64,000 nucleotides of DNA. It comes from Spirochaetota bacterium (GTDB lineage Bacteria > Spirochaetota > Spirochaetia > Treponematales > UBA12059). The DNA is taken from the NCBI GenBank assembly GCA_018816345.1, contig JAHIWG010000017.1, forward strand, positions 21,536 to 85,535, given 5' to 3'. Both the position numbers and the translations under genes were made by a program. Below, in pieces: positions 2,522 to 20,101 of this stretch; within the stretch, counting starts at the first letter, position 1, and each line of letters starts with the position of its first letter. Below the pieces are notes generated by a model, which saw only the letters and a list, made by a program, of their open reading frames with translations, searched no databases and was not told the origin of the DNA.

Positions 2522-3639
2522 CCGCCCGTACCCGCGCGCCTCGCGCGATCGAGACCGTTCTCAGGCGCGCTTCCTCGATCCCGCCCGCGTCCGTCGCTAT
2601 CCTGGTCTTCCTTGCCTCGTACTCCTGCGCGCTGCTGCCTCGCACGCCCCCCATCGAGGGACCGGCGCCCGTCGCGTCGCTGGAGCGCGTGACTCTCGGC
2701 GGCGTCGAGCAGACCATGCTCGTGCGTGGCGCCGATACCTCCAAGCCCATACTCCTATTCGTCCACGGCGGTCCCGGCATGGTCGGTGTTCCCCTCGAGC
2801 ACGCCATGCGCTACCTGGAAGACGACTTCATCGTGGTGACCTACGATCAACGGGGGGCCGGCAAGTCGGGTTCCATCGAGGACGGCGCCGCTCCCATCGG
2901 GAGGTACGTCGACGATCTCGTCGAGCTCGAGCGCCTTCTCGTCGCGAGGTTCGGGAAGGAACGGGTCTACCTGGTCGGGCATTCCTGGGGTTCCCTCGTG
3001 GCCATGCTCGCCGTGAAGCAGGAGCCGGCGCTCGTCGCGGCCTATATCGGGGTCGGGCACGTGGTGTCCACCATCGAGCAGGAGGCGCTCTCGTACCGCT
3101 TCGCCGTTGACCGCGCGAGGGAGACCCGCAACTCGAGGGCCTTGGCCGAGCTGTCGAGCGTCGCTCCTCCCTACCTGGGAGAGGACGGGCGGCTCAGGAT
3201 GGAAGACCTCGCCCTCCAGCGAAAGTGGCTGGAGCTGCTCGGCGGCGTCTGGTACGATTACCGGAAGATGGGAAATAAGGATATGCTGGGCGTCTACTTC
3301 TCGGCCCGGGAGTACAGCATCGTCGACTGGATGGAGGTTGAGCGCCGCGCCAAGTACGCCACCGTCGCTACGTGGAACGAGTCGATGGCCATCGACCTGC
3401 GCGTCGACGCGGCGAGGATAGAGGCGCCGGCGTACTTCTTCACGGGAAGGCGCGACTACAATACCCCCCACGAGCTAATAAGCGATTACTACCGATCGCT
3501 CGACGCTCCGGCGGGCAAGGACTTCGTCTGGTTCGAGCGCTCGGGGCACGTACCGTTCATGGAGGAGCCCGAGCGCTTCCATGCGGAGCTCCTGCGGGTC
3601 GTAGCGGAGACTGAGGCCGCCCGTACCCGCCCTTACTGA
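2518..3639 (+). CDS. Alpha/beta hydrolase (proline iminopeptidase-like), exported
   Basis: LFVHGGPG, DQRGAGKSG, nucleophile elbow GHSWGS, C-terminal His in SGHVPF. Confidence 0.85.
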   Translation: MTARTRAPRAIETVLRRASSIPPASVAILVFLASYSCALLPRTPPIEGPAPVASLERVTLGGVEQTMLVRGADTSKPILLFVHGGPGMVGVPLEHAMRYLEDDFIVVTYDQRGAGKSGSIEDGAAPIGRYVDDLVELERLLVARFGKERVYLVGHSWGSLVAMLAVKQEPALVAAYIGVGHVVSTIEQEALSYRFAVDRARETRNSRALAELSSVAPPYLGEDGRLRMEDLALQRKWLELLGGVWYDYRKMGNKDMLGVYFSAREYSIVDWMEVERRAKYATVATWNESMAIDLRVDAARIEAPAYFFTGRRDYNTPHELISDYYRSLDAPAGKDFVWFERSGHVPFMEEPERFHAELLRVVAETEAARTRPY

Positions 3640-3690
3640 GTTGCGGCACGGCGAGAAGTATGGCGTCCCGCGCCTATGCGCGTTTTAGCG

Positions 3691-3719
3691 TTGACAACGC
3701 GCCTATCCCGTAGTATACG
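3691..3719 (+). promoter_or_regulatory. Sigma70-type promoter candidate TTGACA-17-TATACG
   Basis: ttgaca 3691-3696, tatacg 3714-3719, 17-bp spacer, upstream of the 3842 gene. Confidence 0.45.
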
Positions 3720-3841
3720 GTGGGTGCATACGTAACGCCTGTATAGTACGTAGCTGCCTAGGCCGACGCAGGGGCCTAGGCTTACCGTACGCCTGGTTCG
3801 TATGTTTTCTAAATCATCGGCGGATCGGAGGGGGTAGGGAC

Positions 3842-4324
3842 ATGGACGAGTACGAGGAAGGATTACGGCTGCTCGAAGAGAAATTCGGCGGCGGCAAGGA
3901 TAACGTCATATCGCTGGCGACCGTCGCCGTCGAGCGCGCCGGCGACGGCGCGCCGCTGCCCGCCGTGCGAGGCGTCGACGCCTACTACGAGGGCGGCGCG
4001 TTCTACGTCACGACCAATGCACGCTCTAATAAGATGAAGGAGATAGCCGCCAACCGGCAGGTCTCGATAGCCTCGTGCGCCGAGATGTTCACCGCGAGCG
4101 GGGTGGGCGAGAGCCTGGGCTGGGTGATGGAACCGAGGAACGCGGAGCTGCGGGCCAAGCTCCGCGCGGCGTTCGCCCCCTGGTACGATAGCGCCAATGA
4201 CGAGAAGGATACCGATTGCTGTATCCTGGCCATACGGCTAAGCAAGGGCGTATTGAACGTCAACCATTGGGAGAAGCTCTATCGCCTGGACTTCGAGAGC
4301 AAGGCGTGCATTATCTCGACATGA
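3842..4324 (+). CDS. Pyridoxamine 5'-phosphate oxidase family protein
   Basis: PNPOx-like fold: GGAFYVTTNARSNKMKEIAANRQVSIASCAEMFTASGVG. Confidence 0.75.
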   Translation: MDEYEEGLRLLEEKFGGGKDNVISLATVAVERAGDGAPLPAVRGVDAYYEGGAFYVTTNARSNKMKEIAANRQVSIASCAEMFTASGVGESLGWVMEPRNAELRAKLRAAFAPWYDSANDEKDTDCCILAIRLSKGVLNVNHWEKLYRLDFESKACIIST

Positions 4325-4339
4325 TAGGGAGGCCGGGAG

Positions 4340-4765
4340 ATGGAACAGATTAACGCCGTCGAGCTCGCCGATCCGAGCGTCTACCCGGACGAGGCCGTAT
4401 TGCGCGGCGTGCTCGGGGCGGGCTACGGCGCCTACGGGAAATTCATGGACGCCCTCGGGGAGCGCGGCTATACCCATGAATGGCGCTACTATACGGACGG
4501 CAAGGCCTGGCTCTGCAAGGCCCAGCGCAAGGCCAAGACGCTGGCCTGGATGTCGGCTTGGCGGGGCTACGTCAAGGCCACCGTCTACCTTCCCGAGCGC
4601 TACCTCGAGGGCCTCGCGGGGCTGGCCCTGAGCGACGACGCCAGGCGCTCCATCGATATCGCGAAGGACGTCGGGAAGTCCAGGCCCTGCACGGTCGACC
4701 TGCTGGGCGACCCCGATGTCGCCGACATCCTGGCGCTCATGGACTACAAGGCCTCGCTTAAGTAG
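4340..4765 (+). CDS. DUF3788 family protein
   Basis: EWRYYTDGKAWLCKAQRKAKTLAWMSAWRGYVKATVYLPERY is typical of DUF3788. Confidence 0.65.
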   Translation: MEQINAVELADPSVYPDEAVLRGVLGAGYGAYGKFMDALGERGYTHEWRYYTDGKAWLCKAQRKAKTLAWMSAWRGYVKATVYLPERYLEGLAGLALSDDARRSIDIAKDVGKSRPCTVDLLGDPDVADILALMDYKASLK

Positions 4766-4780
4766 GGAAGGACTACGACC

Positions 4781-4814
4781 TCCCTCCTCGCCCGGCTACC
4801 CGGGCGAGGAGGGG
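4781..4814 (+). terminator. Strong stem-loop after the 4340 gene
   Basis: ccctcctcgcccgg-ctac-ccgggcgaggaggg, perfect 14-bp stem, 4-nt loop; no clear T tract. Confidence 0.5.
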
Positions 4815-4952
4815 GCGCCTTCGGCCAGGTAAAGGTCGACTCGCTCGAGCGCTTGCGCGAGGACGCCCGGTAGCGCGTCGGCGGCTTATACTGCCCGCCT
4901 CTAATCGATCTTTCCCTTGCGCTCGCGGCCCCGACGGCGCTTACTATCCGCG

Positions 4953-5729
4953 ATGACGACTATCGAAATACGAGCCTTGTACGACGAGTACGAGCGCAGG
5001 AACGCGGACTACCCGGGCTACCGTCGCGAGGAGACTGACAAGACCGTCCGCATGGTGAACGACGACGAGGACGGGCACAACTACCTAGTCTATTCGAGCT
5101 TGAGCCATGAGGGCGCGGAGGCCGCCATCGACGGGGAGCTCGCGTACTTCCGCGGCCTCAGGCGGTCGTTCGAGTGGAAGCTCTACTCCCACGACGAGCC
5201 TGCCGACCTCAAGGCCCGCCTCGCCGCGCGCGGTTTCTCCATAGGAGAGGACGAAGCCATCATGGCCCTCGAGCTCGCGGAGCTTCCACCGGAGCTAGCG
5301 GCCGATAATCGCATCGACGCGCGCAGGGTCTCGGACGAGGAAGGCCTGGCCGCCTACGCGGCCCTCGACGCGCTTGTCTGGCCCGACGACCACGAGGAAT
5401 GCATGAGGGAGCTTACGCGAACCTTCCGCGAGGAGCCCGGGCGCCAGAGCTTATGGCTCGCCTCTATCGACGGCGTACCTGCCTGCGCGGCCCGCATCGA
5501 CTTCCCCCCGCGCTCCCCCTTCGCGAGCCTCTGGGGCGGCGCCACCCTCGAGGCCTATCGCGGGCGCGGCGCCTACACCGCCCTGCTCGCCGCCCGCGCC
5601 AAGGAGGCCCTCGCCCGAGGCTACCGTTTCCTGACCATAGACGCGAGCCCCATGAGCCGGCCCATAGTCGCGCGCCGCGGCTTCCGCCTATTATCCGTCT
5701 CTAATCCTTGCGACTCGCCGCCCGAGTGA
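4953..5729 (+). CDS. GNAT family N-acetyltransferase
   Basis: C-terminal GGATLEAYRGRGAYTALLAARAKEALARGYRFLTIDASPMSRPIVARRGFRLL is acetyl-CoA-binding GNAT core. ORF-track start 4917 is probably too long; ATG at 4953. Confidence 0.8.
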   Translation: MTTIEIRALYDEYERRNADYPGYRREETDKTVRMVNDDEDGHNYLVYSSLSHEGAEAAIDGELAYFRGLRRSFEWKLYSHDEPADLKARLAARGFSIGEDEAIMALELAELPPELAADNRIDARRVSDEEGLAAYAALDALVWPDDHEECMRELTRTFREEPGRQSLWLASIDGVPACAARIDFPPRSPFASLWGGATLEAYRGRGAYTALLAARAKEALARGYRFLTIDASPMSRPIVARRGFRLLSVSNPCDSPPE

Positions 5730-5856
5730 GCGGCGCCCGGCGACAGGCGGGCCGGGCTTGCCGTATCCTACGGCTTCCGGCGTATCGGATGAAACAGGAT
5801 GCGCATTGACGATCGACCCGGCGTGGTTTATAAGCCATGGTAGAGGAGGATTAGCG

Positions 5857-6861
5857 ATGGATACCCCCGCCTATGTCCGCTACCGTATCCTGATCGACCT
5901 GGAGGGCGCGGCGCCCGATTCGCCCGCGGCCCGGGCAGCGCTGGCCGAGACGCTCGCCGATCCCCGGGTCGCCCTGCTGCTCGAGGACGTTTCCCGCTGG
6001 CCGGGCACGGTACTCAATAGCCACAAGAGCGCTAGCCAGACCTTCCATACCCTGGAGTTCCTCTCGGAGCTGGGCCTGCCCGGCGATCATCCCTCCGTCG
6101 CGACTGCCGTGGACCGCATCCTCGAGAGCGCCGGGCCGGACGGCGTGCCTCGCCTTCCCATGACCTATCCCAAGCAGTTCGGAGGCCCCGGCGTCGAGAT
6201 GTCCTCTTGGGCGCTCTGCGACGCGCCGACCCTCCTGACCGCCGCCGTACGCTTCGGGCGCTCAGGCGACGCCCGGGTTCGGCGGGGCATCGCGACGCTC
6301 ACGGCCCTGGCCCGCGAAAACGGCTGGCCCTGCGCCGTCAGCCCCGAGCTCAAGTTCCGCGGGCCGGGCCGCAAGGAAGATCCCTGCCCCTACGCTACGC
6401 TCGTAATGCTGAGGCTCCTGGCCGCCTACGCCGAGGCGCTCGCCGGCGCCTCGGCCCATGCTGCCGCTTCCTCGGAGGAGGCGGACGCGATACTCTCTTC
6501 CGACGCGGCTCGCGCCGGCGTCGGGGCCCTGCTCGCCTGCTGGGAGAGAAGCCGCGATTGGCACCCGTATATCTTCTACGCGGGCGACGATTTCCGCAAG
6601 CTAAAGGCTCCCTTCCTCTGGTACGACGTCCTGCACGTCGCCGAGATACTGTCATGCTTTCCCTTCGCCAGGGGAGATCCTCGCCTGGCGGCTATGCTGG
6701 AGGTCATACGCTCCAAGCGGGGCGCGTCGGGAGGCTACAGGCCGGAGTCGGCCTATCAGCCCTACAAGGCCTGGGACTTCGGCCAGAAGAAGGAGGACTC
6801 GCCCTGGCTGGCCTTCCTGATCCGGCGGCTTGAGGCTCGCTTCGATAAGCGCCAGGTCTAG
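5857..6861 (+). CDS. Prenyltransferase/squalene-cyclase-like repeat protein (hypothetical)
   Basis: ATG 5857 preceded by gaggagga; alpha-alpha repeat pattern (HTLEFLSELGLPGDHPSVATAVDRILES...). Family by resemblance. Confidence 0.5.
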   Translation: MDTPAYVRYRILIDLEGAAPDSPAARAALAETLADPRVALLLEDVSRWPGTVLNSHKSASQTFHTLEFLSELGLPGDHPSVATAVDRILESAGPDGVPRLPMTYPKQFGGPGVEMSSWALCDAPTLLTAAVRFGRSGDARVRRGIATLTALARENGWPCAVSPELKFRGPGRKEDPCPYATLVMLRLLAAYAEALAGASAHAAASSEEADAILSSDAARAGVGALLACWERSRDWHPYIFYAGDDFRKLKAPFLWYDVLHVAEILSCFPFARGDPRLAAMLEVIRSKRGASGGYRPESAYQPYKAWDFGQKKEDSPWLAFLIRRLEARFDKRQV

Positions 6862-6997
6862 GCCGCGGCCTCGTAGAGTCGTTCTTTCCCCTGCCACGAC
6901 GCTCGTAGCCAGTGAGAACGAATACGGCATCGGAGGATCGCGGCCGTCGTTAGGAGCGGTCGCCCGGGTCGGCCATTCCGGCATTCGGGGGTACGCG

Positions 6998-7371
6998 ATG
7001 GAAACGATCCTATGGCGGATCGAGCGCTCGGAATTCGGCGAACTGGGGCGGGCCATCGCCGACGCCCGCGCCGCTACCGATAGGCGGTGCATCCGCTCCT
7101 GGCCGGGCTATACGAGCGGCTCATGGGGGAGCTTCCTCAAGGCATCGCGCGATGGGACGCCTACCCGCACGAGGATAATCGCGGCTCGCGGTAGTTCTAC
7201 GAGGCGAGGAGCGTCGCCTCGTACGGGTACGGCGCCAAGGCCGGGGCTCTAGGCGTCGTTGACGATCCGGGTATCGCGCCGCTCGCCGCCGAGGGCGAGG
7301 CCAGGAGGCTCTACGAGTCCTCGGGCTTCGAGCTGCGCCGCGCGGGGCGATCTCTACAGAGGGTATCCTAG
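6998..7371 (+). pseudogene. Decayed GNAT-like acetyltransferase
   Basis: ATG 6998 opens frame 2; the conserved part continues in frame 1 from ~7087 with an in-frame TAG and ends with EARRLYESSGFELRRAGRSLQRVS*, a typical GNAT C-terminus. Confidence 0.55.
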
Positions 7372-7580
7372 CGCTGGCCTCGCCCGGGAGCTCTGGCCAT
7401 AGGCCCGTGCTCTTCCGGCTCACCATCCTCCCTCGACTCTAGGTTCCGAGTTTTTCTTCCCGACGTACACCCTTTGGTGAATATCGCGGTTTAAAAACCC
7501 GTCGTACACTACCTGGACGGCACTGCCCCGCGCCCGGGCGGGGACGCGCCGCATCCATCAACGTTACCTCGGAGGCAACC

Positions 7581-8894
7581 ATGGCAACCAAGACAAAGAA
7601 GGGCGCGCTCGACTGGTACTTCAAGTCGAACCTGCTCACTCGCATCCTCGCGGGCCTCGTGCTCGGCGCCATCGCCGGCGTCGTGCTCGGCTTCTTCCCC
7701 GACGCGGTCAAGCCCTACGTCGACAACGTGAAGTTCTTCGGCGACATCTTCGTGCGGCTCCTCAAGATGATCGTCGTACCGGTCATACTCTTCTCCCTGA
7801 TCGCCGGCGCCGCGAGCATCGCCCCGTCACGCCTGGGACGCGTGGGCGTCAAGATCATGGTGTACTACCTGCTCACGAGCGCCTTCGCCGTGACCATAGG
7901 CCTCGTCTTCGCCAATATCTTCAGGCCGGGCCTCGGGTTCAATATCGTCGGTACGGCCGGCGTGGCGGGCAAGGCGGCCGCGGCCCCGACCCTGACCCAG
8001 ATCATCCTCAACATAGTGCCGACCAATCCCATCGAGTCCCTGACCAAGGGCGACGTGCTGCCCATTATCTTCTTCTCGGTGGTCTTCGGCCTCGGCATAT
8101 CCTTCGTAAAGGATTCCAAGAACGAGAAGATAGCCAAGGGCGCCGATACGCTCTTCGACGTCTGCAACGCCGGAGCCGAGACCATGTACAAGGTCGTTGG
8201 CGGCATCATGCAGTACGCGCCCATCGGCGTGTTCGTCCTCATCTCCATAGTCTTCGCGCAGCAGGGACCCAAGGCGATAGGCCCTCTGCTCGTCGTCACG
8301 CTGACCGTCTACCTCGGCCTCATCGTGCACCTCGTGGGCGTCTACGGCGGGCTCCTGGCTGTCTACAAGCTGGGCCTGGTCAAGTTCCTCAAGGGGGCGA
8401 ACGAGGCTATCGTCACGGCCTTCGTGACGCGCTCCTCCGGCGGCACCCTGCCCATAACGCTCCGCGTGGCGGAGGAGAACCTTGGGATACCGCGGGCCAT
8501 CGGCTCGTTCAGCCTGCCCCTCGGCGCCACCATAAACATGGACGGCACGGCCATCTACCTGGGCGTATGCGCCATGTTCATCGGCTTCGCGACCGGCAAT
8601 CCCCTGACCTTCAACCAGCAGCTGACCGTCGTCATCACCGCCACGCTCGCCTCCATCGGCACCGCGGGCGTACCGGGCGCCGGCGCCATAATGCTCCTCA
8701 TGGTCCTCGAGTCCATAGGGCTCAAGGTCACGGAGGGTTCCGCCGTGGCGGCCGCCTATGCTATGATCCTGGGCATCGACGCCCTCCTTGACATGGGCCG
8801 CACCGCGCTTAACGTGACGGGCGACCTGGCCGGCACCTCCATAGTCTCCAAGACCGAGGGCGAGCTGGAAATGGCCAAGTGGGCTAAGGCCTAG
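7581..8894 (+). CDS. Dicarboxylate/amino acid:cation symporter (DAACS family, GltP/DctA-like)
   Basis: [19 protein letters not shown] and [21 protein letters not shown] motifs. Confidence 0.93.
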
Positions 8895-8915
8895 AGCACA
8901 CAAGGGAGACGCAGC

Positions 8916-9689
8916 ATGGGAGCAGGAGCGGTCATAGTGATAGGCGGGGGAGTAGGCCCCATGGCCGGGGTAGCCCTGCACGCCAAGGTGATCGAGCAGA
9001 CGCTCGGCGACGGCACCGACCAGTCCCATCTCTGCGTCCACCACTATTCCTGCCCGGCCCTGGTGCCAGACAGGACCGCCTACCTCCTCGGCGGGGGAGG
9101 GGATCCGGCCGAGGGCATGGCCGGCGTCTTCGAGGCCGCCGCCCGGGCCCTGTCCGGACGGCCGGCCGTAGGCGGCGTGCCCTGCAATACCTTCCACGCC
9201 CCGGCCATCTACGACCGCTTCGCGGCCATGGTGGCCGAGCGCGCTAGGCCCATACGCCTCGTAAATATGCTCTCCGAGACCGCGGCCTTCCTAGGCGCCT
9301 CAGTCGCTCCCGGGTCGACTATAGGCGTCCTTTCCACCACGGGCACGCGCAAGAGCGGCGTCTACGGCGAGCTCCTGTCGCGATCGGGCTACGTACCGCT
9401 CCTCGTATCCGAGGAGGAGCAGGCCCTGGTGCACGCGGCCATCTACGACGCGTCCTGGGGCATCAAGGCCACTTCCTCGCCCAGCGACCGCGCGCGGGAG
9501 GTCGTGGCCGACATGGCCGGCCGCCTGGCCGGGCGCGGGGCCGCGGCCGTCATCCTGGCGTGTACCGAGCTGCCGCTCGCACTCGGGGGCACTTCCCACG
9601 CGGGCGCCGTCCTCGTCGACCCGGTGCTGGCGCTGGCCCGCGCGCTCGTGCGGGAAGCCGCCCCGGACAGGCTCAGGCCGCTAGGCTAG
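8916..9689 (+). CDS. Aspartate/glutamate racemase family protein
   Basis: GGGVGPMAG, VGGVPCNTFHAPAIYD and ILACTELPLAL catalytic Cys motifs. Confidence 0.85.
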   Translation: MGAGAVIVIGGGVGPMAGVALHAKVIEQTLGDGTDQSHLCVHHYSCPALVPDRTAYLLGGGGDPAEGMAGVFEAAARALSGRPAVGGVPCNTFHAPAIYDRFAAMVAERARPIRLVNMLSETAAFLGASVAPGSTIGVLSTTGTRKSGVYGELLSRSGYVPLLVSEEEQALVHAAIYDASWGIKATSSPSDRAREVVADMAGRLAGRGAAAVILACTELPLALGGTSHAGAVLVDPVLALARALVREAAPDRLRPLG

Positions 9690-10010
9690 CGCTTCCGCGC
9701 CGCCCAGCCTTTCCCTCAGCGAGCGCGCGGCCGCCGCCTCGGCGCAGGCGGCCATCTCGAGGACGCAGGGCGCCTCCAGCCTATACTCGACCAGCGTGCC
9801 CCTCCGCTCGTCGGCGATGAGGCCGACGGCCTTGAGCTGGGACAGATGCTTGGAGGCCACCGACTTGTCTATGCCAGCGGCGGCGGCCAGCTCGCAGACG
9901 CACCACGTCCTGTCGCGCAGGAGCTCGAGGAGGTGCAGCCGCATTGGGTGGGCCAGGGCCTTGAACAACTCGGCGCGTAGCTCGTACTTGCGGCGCAGGG
10001 TGTCTTCCAT
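9681..10010 (-). CDS. ArsR-family metalloregulator
   Basis: LFKALAHPMRLHLLELLRDRTWCVCELAAAAGIDKSVASKHLSQLKAVGLI, including an ELCVC-like metal motif (WCVCEL). Likely start MEDTL at 10010 instead of 10091. Confidence 0.88.
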   Translation of the reverse strand: MEDTLRRKYELRAELFKALAHPMRLHLLELLRDRTWCVCELAAAAGIDKSVASKHLSQLKAVGLIADERRGTLVEYRLEAPCVLEMAACAEAAAARSLRERLGGAEALA

Positions 10011-10022
10011 AACCTCATTGTT

Positions 10023-10076
10023 GCAATGTTTCGAAACAATGTCAAGAATCCGCTTGACAAACTTATGCAATGTTTC
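10023..10076. promoter_or_regulatory. Candidate ArsR operator/promoter region
   Basis: gcaatgtttc repeated at 10023-10032 and 10067-10076; 12-bp palindrome tgtttcgaaaca 10027-10038; ttgaca between the copies. Confidence 0.5.
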
Positions 10077-10096
10077 CAAAATAAGAAACAAGGAGG

Positions 10097-10342
10097 ATGA
10101 CTATGAAGGTACAGATACTCGGATCCGGCTGCGCCAAGTGCAAGCTCCTCGAGCAGCACGCCCGCGAGGCCGTCGCCGAGCTCGGCCTCGACGCCGAGCT
10201 CGTCAAGGTCAGCGACGCCGACGACATCATGGAGATGGGCGTCATGATGACGCCGGCCCTCGCCATAGACGGCGAGGTCAAGAGCGTCGGCAAGGTCCTC
10301 TCGAAGGACCAGGTCGCGGCCTACCTGCGGGAGGAGAAATAA
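10097..10342 (+). CDS. Thioredoxin-fold small protein (TM0996/MTH895-type)
   Basis: MKVQILGSGCAKCKLLEQ...MMTPALAIDGEVKSVGKVLSK; SD aaggagg. Confidence 0.85.
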   Translation: MTMKVQILGSGCAKCKLLEQHAREAVAELGLDAELVKVSDADDIMEMGVMMTPALAIDGEVKSVGKVLSKDQVAAYLREEK

Positions 10343-10343
10343 C

Positions 10344-10715
10344 ATGGCCGGATGCGCGTGCGACGGTACCCGCGAGACCAACTTGATATACGCGTGCTCG
10401 GGCGCGGCTAATACCGGGCTGCTAGCCGACCAGGTGATGCGCGCCCTCAACCGAGACGGCGTCGGCTCGAGCTCCTGCTTGGCCGGGATGGGCGCGGGGC
10501 TCTCGGGGTTCCTGGAATCGGCCAGGGGCGCGACGCGGAACATCGTGCTCGACGGCTGCAAGGTCGCCTGCGGCGCGAGGATATTCGAGAAGAACGGTAT
10601 CGCGTTCCAGCATTACGTCATGACCGACTACGGCGTCGAGAAGGGTAAGACCCTTATAAGCGAGGATCTTATAGAGGCCGTCGCGGGACGGGTAGAGGGG
10701 CTCGTCAAGGCATGA
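10344..10715 (+). CDS. DGC-domain putative zinc-binding protein
   Basis: NLIYACSGAANTGLLADQV...VLDGCKVACGARIFEKNGI resembles the DGC family. Confidence 0.75.
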   Translation: MAGCACDGTRETNLIYACSGAANTGLLADQVMRALNRDGVGSSSCLAGMGAGLSGFLESARGATRNIVLDGCKVACGARIFEKNGIAFQHYVMTDYGVEKGKTLISEDLIEAVAGRVEGLVKA

Positions 10716-11896
10716 GCGCCAAGGAAACCTCCCCTAATAGGAAGCTGCTGCTGGTGATCGGGGCGTTCCTGGCGGCGTATCTCGTCCCGTGGGGATCGGC
10801 CCGCGTCTCCGGGGCCCTGGGCGAGGCCTTCCTGATGCTGGGCGAGTACGCCCGCGACCACGTGCTCCTGTGCCTCGTCCCCGCGATGTTCATAGCCGGC
10901 GCGATCACCGTGTTCCTGGACCAGCGCTCCGTCATGCGCTACCTCGGGCCCGGCGCCAACAGGCTGGCGGCGTACGGCGTAGCCTCGGTCTCCGGCGCCA
11001 TACTCGCGGTATGCTCGTGCACGGTGCTCCCCATCTTCAAGGGAATCTACAAGAAGGGCGCCGGGCTAGGGCCGGCCGTGGCGTTCCTCTATTCGGGCCC
11101 GGCCATAAACGTCCTGGCCATAGTGCTGTCCGCCAAGGTCTTCGGTTGGAGGCTGGGCCTGGCCCGCGCCGTCGGCGCCGTCGCCTTCTCGGTCGTCATA
11201 GGGCTGGCCATGGCCTTCATCTATCGCAAGGACGACGCGGCGCGCGCGGCCGACGCGAGGCTGTTCGCCGCCCCCGAGGAGGAACCGGCCCGCGGGCTCG
11301 GTAAGATGTCCTTCTACATGCTCAGCATGGTCGGGATCCTCGTCTTCGTGAACTGGGCCGATTCCGGCGGCGGCAGCGCGGCCTGGGACGCCGTATACTC
11401 CGCCAAGTACTGGATCGCGGCCGCCTTCGGCCTGGCTCTCCTGTACTCGCTCGCGAAATGGTTCACGAGGGGGGACCTCGTGGAATGGACCGCCGCCACG
11501 CGCGATTTCTCCCTCCAGATACTGCCTCTCCTGTTCGGCGGCGTGCTGGTAGCCGGCTTCCTGTTGGGAAGGCCGGGCCATGACGCCCTCATACCCGGCG
11601 CGTGGATCGCGGGACTCCTCGGCGGCAACTCCCTGGCGGCCAACTTCCTCGCGGCCCTATCGGGCGCCGCCATGTACTTCGCGACCCTCACCGAGATCCC
11701 GATAATCCAGGGCCTCCTCGGCGCCGGGATGGGCCGGGGACCGGCGCTCGCCCTCCTGCTCGCGGGGCCCAGCCTATCCCTGCCGTCGATGCTCGTCATC
11801 TCAGCCGAGCTGGGGTGGAAGAAGACGGCCACGTACGTCGCCCTCGTGGTCGCGCTGTCGACGCTGGCCGGGGTGGCCTTCGGGGCGGTCGCCTAG
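10712..11896 (+). CDS. Permease, ArsP/DUF318 family
   Basis: VCSCTVLPIFKGIYKKGAGLGPAVAFLYSGPAINVLAIVLSAKVFG is the signature of the permease_1 family. Confidence 0.88.
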   Translation: MSAKETSPNRKLLLVIGAFLAAYLVPWGSARVSGALGEAFLMLGEYARDHVLLCLVPAMFIAGAITVFLDQRSVMRYLGPGANRLAAYGVASVSGAILAVCSCTVLPIFKGIYKKGAGLGPAVAFLYSGPAINVLAIVLSAKVFGWRLGLARAVGAVAFSVVIGLAMAFIYRKDDAARAADARLFAAPEEEPARGLGKMSFYMLSMVGILVFVNWADSGGGSAAWDAVYSAKYWIAAAFGLALLYSLAKWFTRGDLVEWTAATRDFSLQILPLLFGGVLVAGFLLGRPGHDALIPGAWIAGLLGGNSLAANFLAALSGAAMYFATLTEIPIIQGLLGAGMGRGPALALLLAGPSLSLPSMLVISAELGWKKTATYVALVVALSTLAGVAFGAVA

Positions 11897-16059: not shown

Positions 16060-16932
16060 TTACTTCCAGACGTACTTCACGAATTTTACGGCGGGATCCT
16101 TGGATATCTCCTGGGCCGAGCCGTCGTACGACCTGACCTTGGTCCAGCCGAGCTGCTGGCTCAGGATCCACCACCAGGCGGTGCAGAGCACGCCCGAGTC
16201 GCAATGGACGACCATATCCTTCTTGGGGTCCAGCTTGAGCGCCTTGACGGCCTCCTCGAGCTCGGCCTTGGGACGGACGAGGCCTCCGACCGTCAGCCAC
16301 GAGGCGGGCAGGGCGGTCGCGCCGGGGATATGGCCGAACTGCTCGACGAAGCCCTGCTTGGTCACGCCGAAGTAGGTGTCGTAGGAACGGGCGTCGACGA
16401 TCTGGGCGCGCCTCAGGTTCTTGACGACGTAGTCCTTGGTGGAGATATAGGAGTCGACGAACTTCACCTTGAAGTCGGTGCCGTCCCTCGACTCGAACCC
16501 GCTAGCGGTCTCCTTGCCGGCCTTGGTCCACTCGGCGTAGCCTCCGTCGAGCACGGCGACGTTGGGGACGCCTGCGTAGACCAGGGTCCACGCGACGCGG
16601 GTGGCCCACGCGAAGCGGGCGCCGTCGGCCTCCACCACGACCACGGTCGAGGCCGCGTCGATACCGGCGTCGGCGATTATCTCCGAGAGGTCGTCGGCCT
16701 CGGGGACCTCGTTTGACAGGCCGTCCTTGGCCACGAAGAGCCCTAGGACGTTGACCGCGCCGGGTACGTGGCCGGCCTTATAGTCGTCGACCTTCCTCAC
16801 GTCCACGACGACGACGCCCGGCTTGGCCGAGTTGGCCGCGAGCCACTCGACGGAGACTATGGGATCGACGCCGCGGGCGAAGGCCGGCGCGACGAGCGCG
16901 GCGGCGAGCAGGATCGGTAGTGCCTTCTTCAT
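16060..16932 (-). CDS. Exported two-domain rhodanese-type sulfurtransferase
   Basis: Signal peptide MKKALPILLAAALVAPAFA; VVDVRKVDDYKAGHVPGAVN, VDARSYDTYFG...HIPGA, active-site loop HCDSGVLCTAWW. Confidence 0.85.
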   Translation of the reverse strand: MKKALPILLAAALVAPAFARGVDPIVSVEWLAANSAKPGVVVVDVRKVDDYKAGHVPGAVNVLGLFVAKDGLSNEVPEADDLSEIIADAGIDAASTVVVVEADGARFAWATRVAWTLVYAGVPNVAVLDGGYAEWTKAGKETASGFESRDGTDFKVKFVDSYISTKDYVVKNLRRAQIVDARSYDTYFGVTKQGFVEQFGHIPGATALPASWLTVGGLVRPKAELEEAVKALKLDPKKDMVVHCDSGVLCTAWWWILSQQLGWTKVRSYDGSAQEISKDPAVKFVKYVWK

Positions 16933-16966: not shown

Positions 16967-18190
16967 TTAGGGGACGAGTTCCAGGTTCTTGGTCGAGCCG
17001 CCCGCCGGCAGGCGTTCGGTCTCCAGGTAGTACAGGCCTTCCTGGTGGCAGGTGTCGCAGTCCCTGGTGCGGTCCGTGCGCTTCGCTATGTTGTGCGGTA
17101 CCGTGTCCCAGTAGTTGGGCAGCGAGTCGTAGTTCTTCATCTCGAGGCCCGCGGGGGCGAACGTGGCGCGCCCCGTGGGGATGAGCCTGAGCGTGGTCAG
17201 CTGGCCCGGCGTCCTGGGGCTGTGCCCGAGCACGATGGCGGGGCTGGCCGAGGCTCCTCCGCCTAGGTGGCAGGAGCTGCATTGCCTGTACGCGGAGGCC
17301 GTATGGCAGGCGGAGCACGAGACGCCGTCCGCGTGCGTGGCGTGCGTTTCCTTCGTGGAGGCCTTTCCTAGCTTCGACAGGTCGTGGCACCCGGCGCATG
17401 ACGGCTTATCCGCCACTTGCTTGCGCCCCTCGTAGGCGACGCCGTCGCCGTGGAACTGCTTGCCCTCGTGGCAATCCGAGCAGGTCATGCCCTTGCGGTA
17501 ATGCACGTCCGGGGTACCGCCGTAATCGCCGGTGAATTCCGGCCATACGCGCCCTCCGTGGCATAGCGCGCAGGTCTTGTCCTCCGCCTTCTTCACGAAA
17601 CGGTGGCCGTCCAGTAAGCCTGAATCCACGCCCGAGATTACCGGGCTCTTGACGTGGCAGTCCCCGCACGAGGCGTGGCAGCTGCGGCACGATTGCTGGA
17701 ACACCTTCTCCTCGAAGATCCGCTCGCCGGGGGCGTCGAATCGCGGCGATACGCCGTGCTTCATGCCGGCGGCCGTGTAATGCAGGGAGAGCGTGTACGT
17801 CTTGGCCGTCTCCTCGTGGCATTGGCCGCAGGAGCCGACGGGATCGTCGGAGGGACGCCTCACGAGGCCCGTATGGGCTCCGTCCTTGGCAGCCTTGGAC
17901 GAATCGCCCTTGTGGCATGCGGTACAATCGAGGTAGAAGTGGGCATCGCCCTCGAGCGCGTCCTTAGAGACTACATAGCCCATGTAATAATCCGCCCGAA
18001 CCGGGGGAGGAGCGCCAGCTCACCCCTCGCCTTCGGCGGATCCGCCCGAGGGCGGGACGACGAGCCGCTTCATCGTCGCTTCGTTCGTATGGCAGTCGAG
18101 GCAGCTCGAGCCCGAGGCATTCGCGGCGAGCGTTCCGGCGCCGAACAGGGCGACGAGGATCATGGCCCGCGTCGAGGTCGCCGTATTCAC
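16967..18190 (-). CDS. Exported 11-heme c-type cytochrome interrupted by one in-frame TGA (codon 57; candidate selenocysteine)
   Basis: GTG at 18190 with SD aaggagg; MNTATSTRAMILVALFGAGTLAANASGSSCLDCHTNEATMKRLVVPPSGGSAEGEG-TGA-AGAPPPVRADYYMGYVVSKD... continuous frame into the listed ORF 16967-17983; 1+10 CXXCH motifs. TGA at complement(18020..18022). Confidence 0.8.
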
Positions 18191-18315
18191 TATGGAACCT
18201 CCTTACGCGTAATAGGACGGGGCCGACGGCCCCGATAGATATACCGAATGATACTAGATGAATATAGAGGTGTAAATAGATAAAAAAAAATCTATATATT
18301 AGTAATTTACTTAAG

Positions 18316-18371: not shown

Positions 18372-19304
18372 TTGAAGAAATTCATAGCTTGGATATCCTC
18401 GATGAGGCTCGCCATCGTCCTCATCGCCTACCTCGTCGCGACGTGCATAGCGGCGACCCTCGTGCCGCAAGGCCTGTCCGAGGAGGCGTACGACGCCATG
18501 TACCCCCGGCTCGTGGCCTTGCTCGTCGTGCAGACGGGGTTCGGCCGTTTCTTCAGCTCAATCCTGTTCATCATCCCGGCCTTCCTATTCTTCGCTAATC
18601 TCTCCGCGTGCACGGTCAAGCGCCTGGTCCGCGAGGCGCGGAAGAAGCGCGGCCGGAGGCACGGTCCCGATATCCTTCACGTAGGCCTCATGGCGCTGGT
18701 AGTCGGCAGCGTATGGTCGTTCTCCGGGCATCGGCAGGGCTTCGTAACGCTGTCGCCCGGCGATAGCGTTAACCTGCCCGGCGGCTCGGTGCTGCATCTA
18801 GACGACTTCCGCTTCGAGCGGTATCCCGACGGCCGCCCTCGGGATTGGGTCTCGGTCGTGACCGTCCTGGAAGGCGGCGCCCCGGTATTGGAGAAGGCGG
18901 AGATCCGCGTCAACTCGCCGCTACGGTACTCGGGCCTCACGTTCTACCAGGCTAGCTACGAGGAGGCGCCGGCGCTCGCCCTGGCCGATCCCGCCGGCGG
19001 CGAGATTATCCTGGCCCAGGGCGAGGAGCGCGTGGTGGGCGGCACGGCCTATTACTTCATGTCGCCCGAGGCCGACGGTATCCGCGCCGTGATGCGAGTA
19101 GGCGCTGGCGCCGAGGGTAAGACGGTCAGGGCCGGCCCGGGCGACGGGGTCGGCGAGCTCGAGGTCGTCGGCCTTCGCGCGGGCCTGGCGACCGGCATCG
19201 AGGCCGTGTCGGATCCCGGCTATCCGCTGGTCATGGTCGCGCTCGCGCTCATAGCGCTGGGCACGGCGTGGACTTTCGCTCAGAAGCTAAAGGAGGGCGT
19301 ATGA
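18372..19304 (+). CDS. resB: ResB-like cytochrome c biogenesis protein
   Basis: MKKFIAWISSMRLAIVLIAYLVATCIAATLVPQGLSEEAY; VNSPLRYSGLTFYQASYEE; TTG start. Confidence 0.82.
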   Translation: MKKFIAWISSMRLAIVLIAYLVATCIAATLVPQGLSEEAYDAMYPRLVALLVVQTGFGRFFSSILFIIPAFLFFANLSACTVKRLVREARKKRGRRHGPDILHVGLMALVVGSVWSFSGHRQGFVTLSPGDSVNLPGGSVLHLDDFRFERYPDGRPRDWVSVVTVLEGGAPVLEKAEIRVNSPLRYSGLTFYQASYEEAPALALADPAGGEIILAQGEERVVGGTAYYFMSPEADGIRAVMRVGAGAEGKTVRAGPGDGVGELEVVGLRAGLATGIEAVSDPGYPLVMVALALIALGTAWTFAQKLKEGV

Positions 19305-20101
19305 GCCTAGACTCCGTTTTCGCGAACGCCGCGTTCGCGCTGTTCCTAGCCTCGGCCGCCGTTCAGGTAGTCTTCATCTTCAAGAGGAACGCCGGGACTG
19401 ACGCGATAGGCCCGTGGATACTGCTCGCCGCCTCCGCCTCGCTGCTCGTCGCGCTGGCGCTGCGCAGCCTCGAGGTAGGCTTCGTGGCGCTAACCAGTAC
19501 CTACGAGTCGCTAGCCTTCTTCGCGGCCGTCATAGGCGCGGTGTGCTTCGCCTATCGCTACCAGAGGCGCCTCCCGTACAAGCCCGCGGCCGTATTCGGC
19601 TCTACCATGGTCGCCGTGGTCATGCTCGCGGTGGCGAGCTCGCCTTTGATACCCAAGGAGGCCCTGCCGCCTATACCGGCCCTACGCTCGGCCTGGCTCC
19701 TCCTGCACGTCAGCTTCACCTTCGTAGGCGAGGCGTTCTTCGTCGCGGGCTTCGTCACGTCGATACTGTTCCTGTTCTCGAAGGACGGCGAGCGCAGGCT
19801 AGAGCTCGACAGGCTGACGTATACCGCCATAGCCGTCGGCTACCCGTTCTTCACGGCCGGGGCGCTCGTGTTCGGCGCCATATGGGCCGAGCAGGCGTGG
19901 GGGCGGTGGTGGAGCTGGGACCCGAAGGAGACCTGGGGCCTAATCACGTGGCTGGTCTATACCGCGTACCTGCACCTGCGCCTCGTGATGAAGCGCAAGG
20001 ACTCCCTCCCGGCGATCGTCGCCGTCGCGGGCTTCCTATGCGCGGCGTTCACGTTCTTCGGCGTCAATTACCTCCTGCCCGGCTTGCACAGCTACGGCTG
20101 A
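19301..20101 (+). CDS. ccsA: CcsA/CcsB-type cytochrome c assembly protein
   Basis: WAEQAWGRWWSWDPKETWGLITWLVYTAYLHLR is the tryptophan-rich WWD-type motif; ATG 19301 overlaps the resB stop. Confidence 0.9.
   Translation: MSLDSVFANAAFALFLASAAVQVVFIFKRNAGTDAIGPWILLAASASLLVALALRSLEVGFVALTSTYESLAFFAAVIGAVCFAYRYQRRLPYKPAAVFGSTMVAVVMLAVASSPLIPKEALPPIPALRSAWLLLHVSFTFVGEAFFVAGFVTSILFLFSKDGERRLELDRLTYTAIAVGYPFFTAGALVFGAIWAEQAWGRWWSWDPKETWGLITWLVYTAYLHLRLVMKRKDSLPAIVAVAGFLCAAFTFFGVNYLLPGLHSYG

Follow-up and report, generated by a model that had tools for sequence, protein, structure and literature searches.

A predicted selenocysteine-containing 11-heme cytochrome in Spirochaetota, with a conserved SECIS-like hairpin after its in-frame UGA

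A gene of the Spirochaetota, designated cytU, is predicted to encode an 11-heme c-type cytochrome in which the UGA at codon 57 is almost certainly decoded as selenocysteine (Sec); this conclusion is drawn from comparison of sequences and has no protein-level evidence behind it. The gene lies in a 64,000-nucleotide stretch of a Spirochaetota assembly (the whole stretch is referred to here as the window), and the wider account, in which CytU is one exported 11-heme cytochrome with Sec at position 57, is considered very likely overall, the sulfur/selenium role proposed below being its much weaker part. The features of the gene are as follows.

16967..18190, minus strand: cytU, putative Sec-containing 11-heme c-type cytochrome, 407 amino acids through an in-frame UGA, TAA stop; 26 homologues with the same architecture
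18198..18204, minus strand: Shine-Dalgarno sequence aaggagg, perfect and retained upstream of most orthologues
18116..18190, minus strand: signal peptide, from the translation, with the boundary inferred near residue 25
18089..18103, minus strand: first heme site CLDCH, 5' of the UGA; C30, C33 and H34 invariant in homologues
18020..18022, minus strand: in-frame UGA, codon 57, interpreted as selenocysteine; TGA in 27/27 homologous genomes

The cytU frame opens with a GTG at 18190 on the minus strand, closes with the TAA at 16967 and is interrupted solely by the TGA at 18022-18020, which, when taken as a residue, leaves a product with one CXXCH site before it and ten after. Inspection of the sequence bore out the initial annotation, which had described the ribosome binding site, GTG start, signal peptide, CLDCH site, single TGA and open reading frame from 17983 in these terms. 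That last frame, an annotatable ORF of 338 amino acids, begins downstream of the TGA, and a mechanical gene caller would start cytU there and lose both the signal peptide and heme 1; selenoproteins of this kind are easily missed in annotation because the gene resembles a truncated cytochrome. CytU meets the criteria for a multiheme c-type cytochrome (CXXCH sites, signal peptide and cytochrome profiles), with Pfam matches above cut-off to the Cytochrome_C7, Cytochrom_c3_2 and Mtrc-MtrF domains, and a PDB sequence search returned weak multiheme matches only. The mature protein contains no cysteines other than those of the heme sites, plus a lipobox-like Cys that occupies the place of the signal peptide in the f13 clade. 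Sec would be the sole non-heme cysteine-like residue of mature CytU and hence would have no resolving thiol of its own. A structure predicted from five orthologues reached a pLDDT of only 31 and was not used, so the position of Sec relative to the hemes cannot be fixed.

Homologues were sought at E <= 1e-10 within the order and E <= 1e-15 across the phylum, and four orthologues were retrieved from the genome collection. cytU is present in 18 of the 294 genomes sampled from the order, including its own; the phylum search added G549, from the same subfamily, and distant copies in groups f13 and f55, and a family search brought f13 to seven genomes. The total stands at 27 genomes from several families (the source genome and 26 others), with identity to the window protein falling from 81% to about 31%, and no relatives were found in the plasmid or viral collections. 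Two copies (G059 and G656) are truncated by contig ends and a third, in G019, has an additional TAA and is either broken or wrongly assembled. This TAA sits 15 codons before the TGA (L017, contig 22, near 230), as might be expected if the copy is decaying or the assembly is in error.

TGA occupies the equivalent column, between heme 1 and heme 2, in every one of the 27 genomes, and a sense codon, be it Gly, Cys or any other, was found there in none of them. The residues flanking it are conserved on both sides (EGEGUAGxPPPVRA), meeting the criterion for a bacterial selenoprotein of a conserved in-frame UGA with coding sequence to either side. The column alignment that the initial annotation had called for thus places U in all 27 sequences and neither Gly nor another residue in any, and it disposes of the main alternative offered there, that the TGA is a nonsense mutation of GGA within a Gly-rich linker, and of the related possibility of a sequencing error, either of which would mean a broken gene. 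The flanks are indeed rich in Gly and one base change would be enough, but recurrence of the TGA in the same column in genomes of several families, with both frames intact and no Gly version, refutes the pseudogene reading and leaves it next to no credibility. Cys homologues of selenoproteins are common but not universal, and selenoproteins that lack them are rare. No Cys version of CytU was seen among homologues at the above thresholds, other phyla not being deeply searchable.

Immediately downstream of the UGA lies an RNA structure whose conservation carries much of the case for Sec.

17991..18008, minus strand: SECIS-like hairpin with a 7-bp stem, a single bulged C and the loop GUU at 18001-17999

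The hairpin, UCCCCCG-GUU-CGGG(C)GGA, has a predicted energy of about -8.4 kcal/mol when folded alone and its triloop begins 19 nt after the UGA, so the initial annotation had drawn it correctly, bulged C and GUU loop included. In a recent selenoprotein inventory, the bSECIS consensus is given as a loop of 3-9 nt with G first and then U, a spacing of 16-37 nt, a stem of 4-16 bp and an energy of at most -7.5 kcal/mol (PMC13188914); the window hairpin meets these criteria as set out there, although its energy does not stand above the shuffled background. Indeed, the folding energy is unexceptional for the composition (z = 0.63 against shuffles) and was dropped as evidence for a SECIS. A search of Rfam gave no match, and the stem departs from the consensus in the bulged C on its 3' side, which is found in the window clade and in neither of the other two. 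Some bSECIS-like hairpin follows 87 of the 1175 TGA triplets in the window; a GUN triloop follows only two of the 1175, one of them presumably that of cytU itself, and when the peptide was recoded synonymously 5000 times, 7 versions gave a GUN triloop on a stem of at least 7 bp.

It is evolution that lifts the hairpin above chance: the TGA is conserved in position, a GU-initiated triloop on a stem of 6-8 bp stands 18-19 nt after it in 27/27 homologues, and synonymous sites are frozen beneath the structure. In the window clade, the UGA is followed by nine partly variable bases and then by CCTCCCCCGGT(T/C)CGGGCGGA, and the third loop base is the only one that varies within the hairpin. The stem is GCGCCGGA/UUCGGCGC in f13 and GUGGAGCC/GGCUCCGC in f55, each with a GU-initiated triloop one base nearer the UGA, and five of the seven stem pairs have changed on both sides yet still pair when the window clade is compared with each other clade; since the main clade shows no variation in the stem, this covariation rests on three clades. 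The codons and residues under the loop differ by clade (Val; Glu-Phe; Pro-Leu), and because of this the conservation of the loop cannot be explained by conservation of the protein. Among 16 full-length orthologues of the window clade, a single codon is used at 5 of the 8 high-degeneracy invariant residues after the UGA, compared with 0 of 61 elsewhere in the gene, and this freezing is confined to the hairpin.

These data also bear on whether the locus might encode two proteins, a one-heme secreted peptide ending at the UGA and a ten-heme protein initiated at the ATG at 17983. Such an ATG is available 13 codons past the TGA, and an analogous 'conserved operon' alternative was raised for the Geobacter cytochrome ExtKL by Fujita et al. 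(PMC1914089), but the downstream part, lacking a signal peptide, could not acquire heme outside the cytoplasm. Furthermore, the internal Met is not conserved (f13 reads EFSALEKFQVS there), the residues between the UGA and the Met are among the most conserved, and synonymous constraint begins right after the UGA. The split-gene reading was rejected on this homologue evidence and is most improbable, a single Sec-containing polypeptide being preferred.

The genome that contains the window encodes selB, tRNA-Sec (selC), selA and selD together on one contig, so that all four genes for which the initial annotation had proposed a search are present, and its SelD itself carries Sec (CSAAGUAAK), from which it follows that Sec decoding is presumably active. 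SelD is a Sec protein in 7/7 loci (L044, at 72-1079 plus upstream sequence on contig 85 of G000, and L032, L035, L036, L038, L039 and L041); standard annotation would begin it after its UGA. Within the order, selB is found in all 18 holders of cytU and in 40 of the 276 non-holders (Fisher 1.8e-14, with no correction for phylogeny), and it is likewise present in all further holders beyond that sample. No TGA was detected in the formate dehydrogenase matches of the 22 holders tested, and GrdA occurs in only one of the 27 (G025). On contig 124 of that genome (around 3463-10040), selB and the gene for a Sec-containing GrdA are about 6 kb apart and cytU is elsewhere, in contrast with the sel genes linked to cytU in other holders. 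In most holder genomes no selenoproteins other than CytU and SelD were found, albeit from an incomplete inventory, and the cytochrome, with SelD, appears to rank among the main clients of the Sec machinery there.

Were a suppressor tRNA or an altered code to place one of the ordinary amino acids at the UGA, the frame would equally be open on both sides, and unusual genetic codes do occur in some lineages. Nevertheless, TGA is the normal final stop of cytU in many orthologues, which shows that it has not been reassigned, and these genomes possess selABCD with tRNA-Sec and a SECIS-like hairpin after the codon in every case. The altered-code reading was rejected on the homologue evidence as highly implausible, and the invariant TGA, conserved hairpin and selABCD together support the Sec assignment first made in the initial annotation.

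The genes on either side of cytU place it in a cytochrome biogenesis and rhodanese context.

16060..16932, minus strand: periplasmic two-domain rhodanese, SseA-like with a weaker match to ExtH, next downstream of cytU (Pfam Rhodanese E 2.8e-35; NCBIfam)
18372..19304, plus strand: ResB-like cytochrome c biogenesis protein, divergent, adjacency conserved
19268..20101, plus strand: CcsB (System II cytochrome c biogenesis), TIGR03144 above cut-off, adjacency conserved

The rhodanese adjoins cytU in all f1, f4 and f5 loci examined and a shorter rhodanese does so in f55, but none is found beside cytU in the f13 clade or G549, so a functional link cannot be universal. ResB and CcsB adjoin the gene in f1, f4, f5, f13 and G549 wherever the contig extends, and were not found near it in f55 or G025. 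The sel genes themselves lie within 10 kb of cytU in 13 genomes or more. Eight genomes of the main clade carry tRNA-Sec, selA, selB and often also selD no further than 10 kb after the cytochrome gene, and in f13 selC-selA-selB lead directly into it. In the source genome the sel genes are on one contig and cytU is on another. selABCD can thus be physically coupled to a multiheme cytochrome in place of formate dehydrogenase or glycine reductase. In both f13 loci examined (L057:4333-5301 and L059:13210-14199), a lipoprotein of unknown function (GCGKK..., with an Ala/Pro-rich linker) is encoded just upstream of selC-selA-selB-cytU and may share a unit with them.

In the proposed mechanism, SelB and tRNA-Sec would insert Sec at UGA-57 under the direction of the GUU-loop hairpin that follows it. 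CytU would leave the cytoplasm by the general secretion pathway and receive its hemes from ResB/CcsB, encoded divergently from it, as inferred from their conserved proximity. Sec may then act in concert with the hemes, either as a nucleophile in catalysis or as a heme ligand, and the redox role inferred for the protein would involve an external partner alongside Sec and the hemes. The weakest step is the role itself: that CytU is a periplasmic oxidoreductase of sulfur or selenium compounds, with the adjacent rhodanese as sulfur or selenium carrier, is inferred by analogy, the substrate being unproven, and is put forward tentatively, at somewhat short of even chances. Sulfur/selenium chemistry is pointed to by the rhodanese and by the resemblance of the pair to Geobacter ExtH/ExtKL. 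CytU might instead be a Sec protein that mainly supplies selenium, reducing selenite in the periplasm to feed SelD and lying beside the sel genes for that reason. Linkage to selA/B/C/D would fit, as would the somewhat ExtH-like rhodanese partner (60.6 bits) and the impaired selenite and tellurite reduction that follows deletion of extI in the Geobacter ext cluster (PMC5877670; PMC6148476), but there is no direct evidence, several genomes besides that of the window have the genes unlinked, cytU is absent from 40 genomes of the order that do have selB, and the linkage is accounted for equally well if a client was transferred together with the machinery that decodes it; a supply role is considered unlikely. 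Beyond the oxidoreductase proposal, it is a speculative and rather doubtful idea that the Sec system of these spirochaetes has been kept and moved mainly for CytU and that Sec acts directly at a heme, as an axial selenolate ligand or a nucleophile beside a catalytic heme. To our knowledge, there is no example of such an active site.

The initial annotation had mentioned a Sec-containing Geobacter cytochrome associated with a rhodanese-like protein, and this system is real: ExtKL (GSU2937-2936) is a predicted Sec multiheme cytochrome clustered with the rhodanese-like ExtH (PMC1914089, PMC6148476, PMC5877670), in an ext cluster with a reported connection to the reduction of selenite and tellurite (PMC5877670). 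ExtKL resembles CytU in being a multiheme c-type cytochrome whose in-frame UGA is conserved and for which no Cys version is known (for CytU, within the searches given above), and in being accompanied by a rhodanese-like protein in a host with Sec machinery. Unlike CytU, with one heme before the UGA and ten after, it has five hemes, then the UGA and a heme-free C-terminal part, and whereas no SECIS was found in ExtKL (Fujita et al., PMC1914089) the CytU family has a conserved one. The ExtKL model NF040886 gave no match to CytU at E <= 1 and no member in the window genome, so identification of CytU as ExtKL was rejected on this and the heme layout, in a comparison resting on the NCBIfam model and the papers. 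ExtM (12-heme) and ExtN (10-heme) show weak partial profile similarity to CytU (37.9 and 34.4 bits), far under their family cut-offs (800 and 200), and no report of either as a Sec protein was met in the portions of the literature available.

The 2026 inventory, which covers 119 families, lists ExtKL (NF040886) and, within the octaheme tetrathionate reductase family TIGR04315, a Sec entry (PMC13188914); the latter is also a multiheme cytochrome with Sec annotated in GenBank, but it has eight hemes and no match to CytU. Neither that inventory nor the deep-Sep paper, in the parts that could be consulted, describes an 11-heme Sec cytochrome, and on this limited basis the CytU family appears new, a predicted selenoprotein with 11 hemes and a conserved SECIS that has not been described before, whereas the idea of a Sec multiheme cytochrome is already known. 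With ExtKL unresolved and lacking a SECIS, CytU strengthens the unsettled case for Sec in multiheme cytochromes and makes the role of selenium beside hemes directly testable.

Elsewhere in the window, at 9681-11896, an ArsR-type regulator is divergent from a small thioredoxin-like protein (GSGCAKCK), accompanied by a small Cys-rich protein and a CSC-motif permease; Cys and not Sec is encoded at the sites inspected, and the arrangement resembles a metal or arsenic efflux group.
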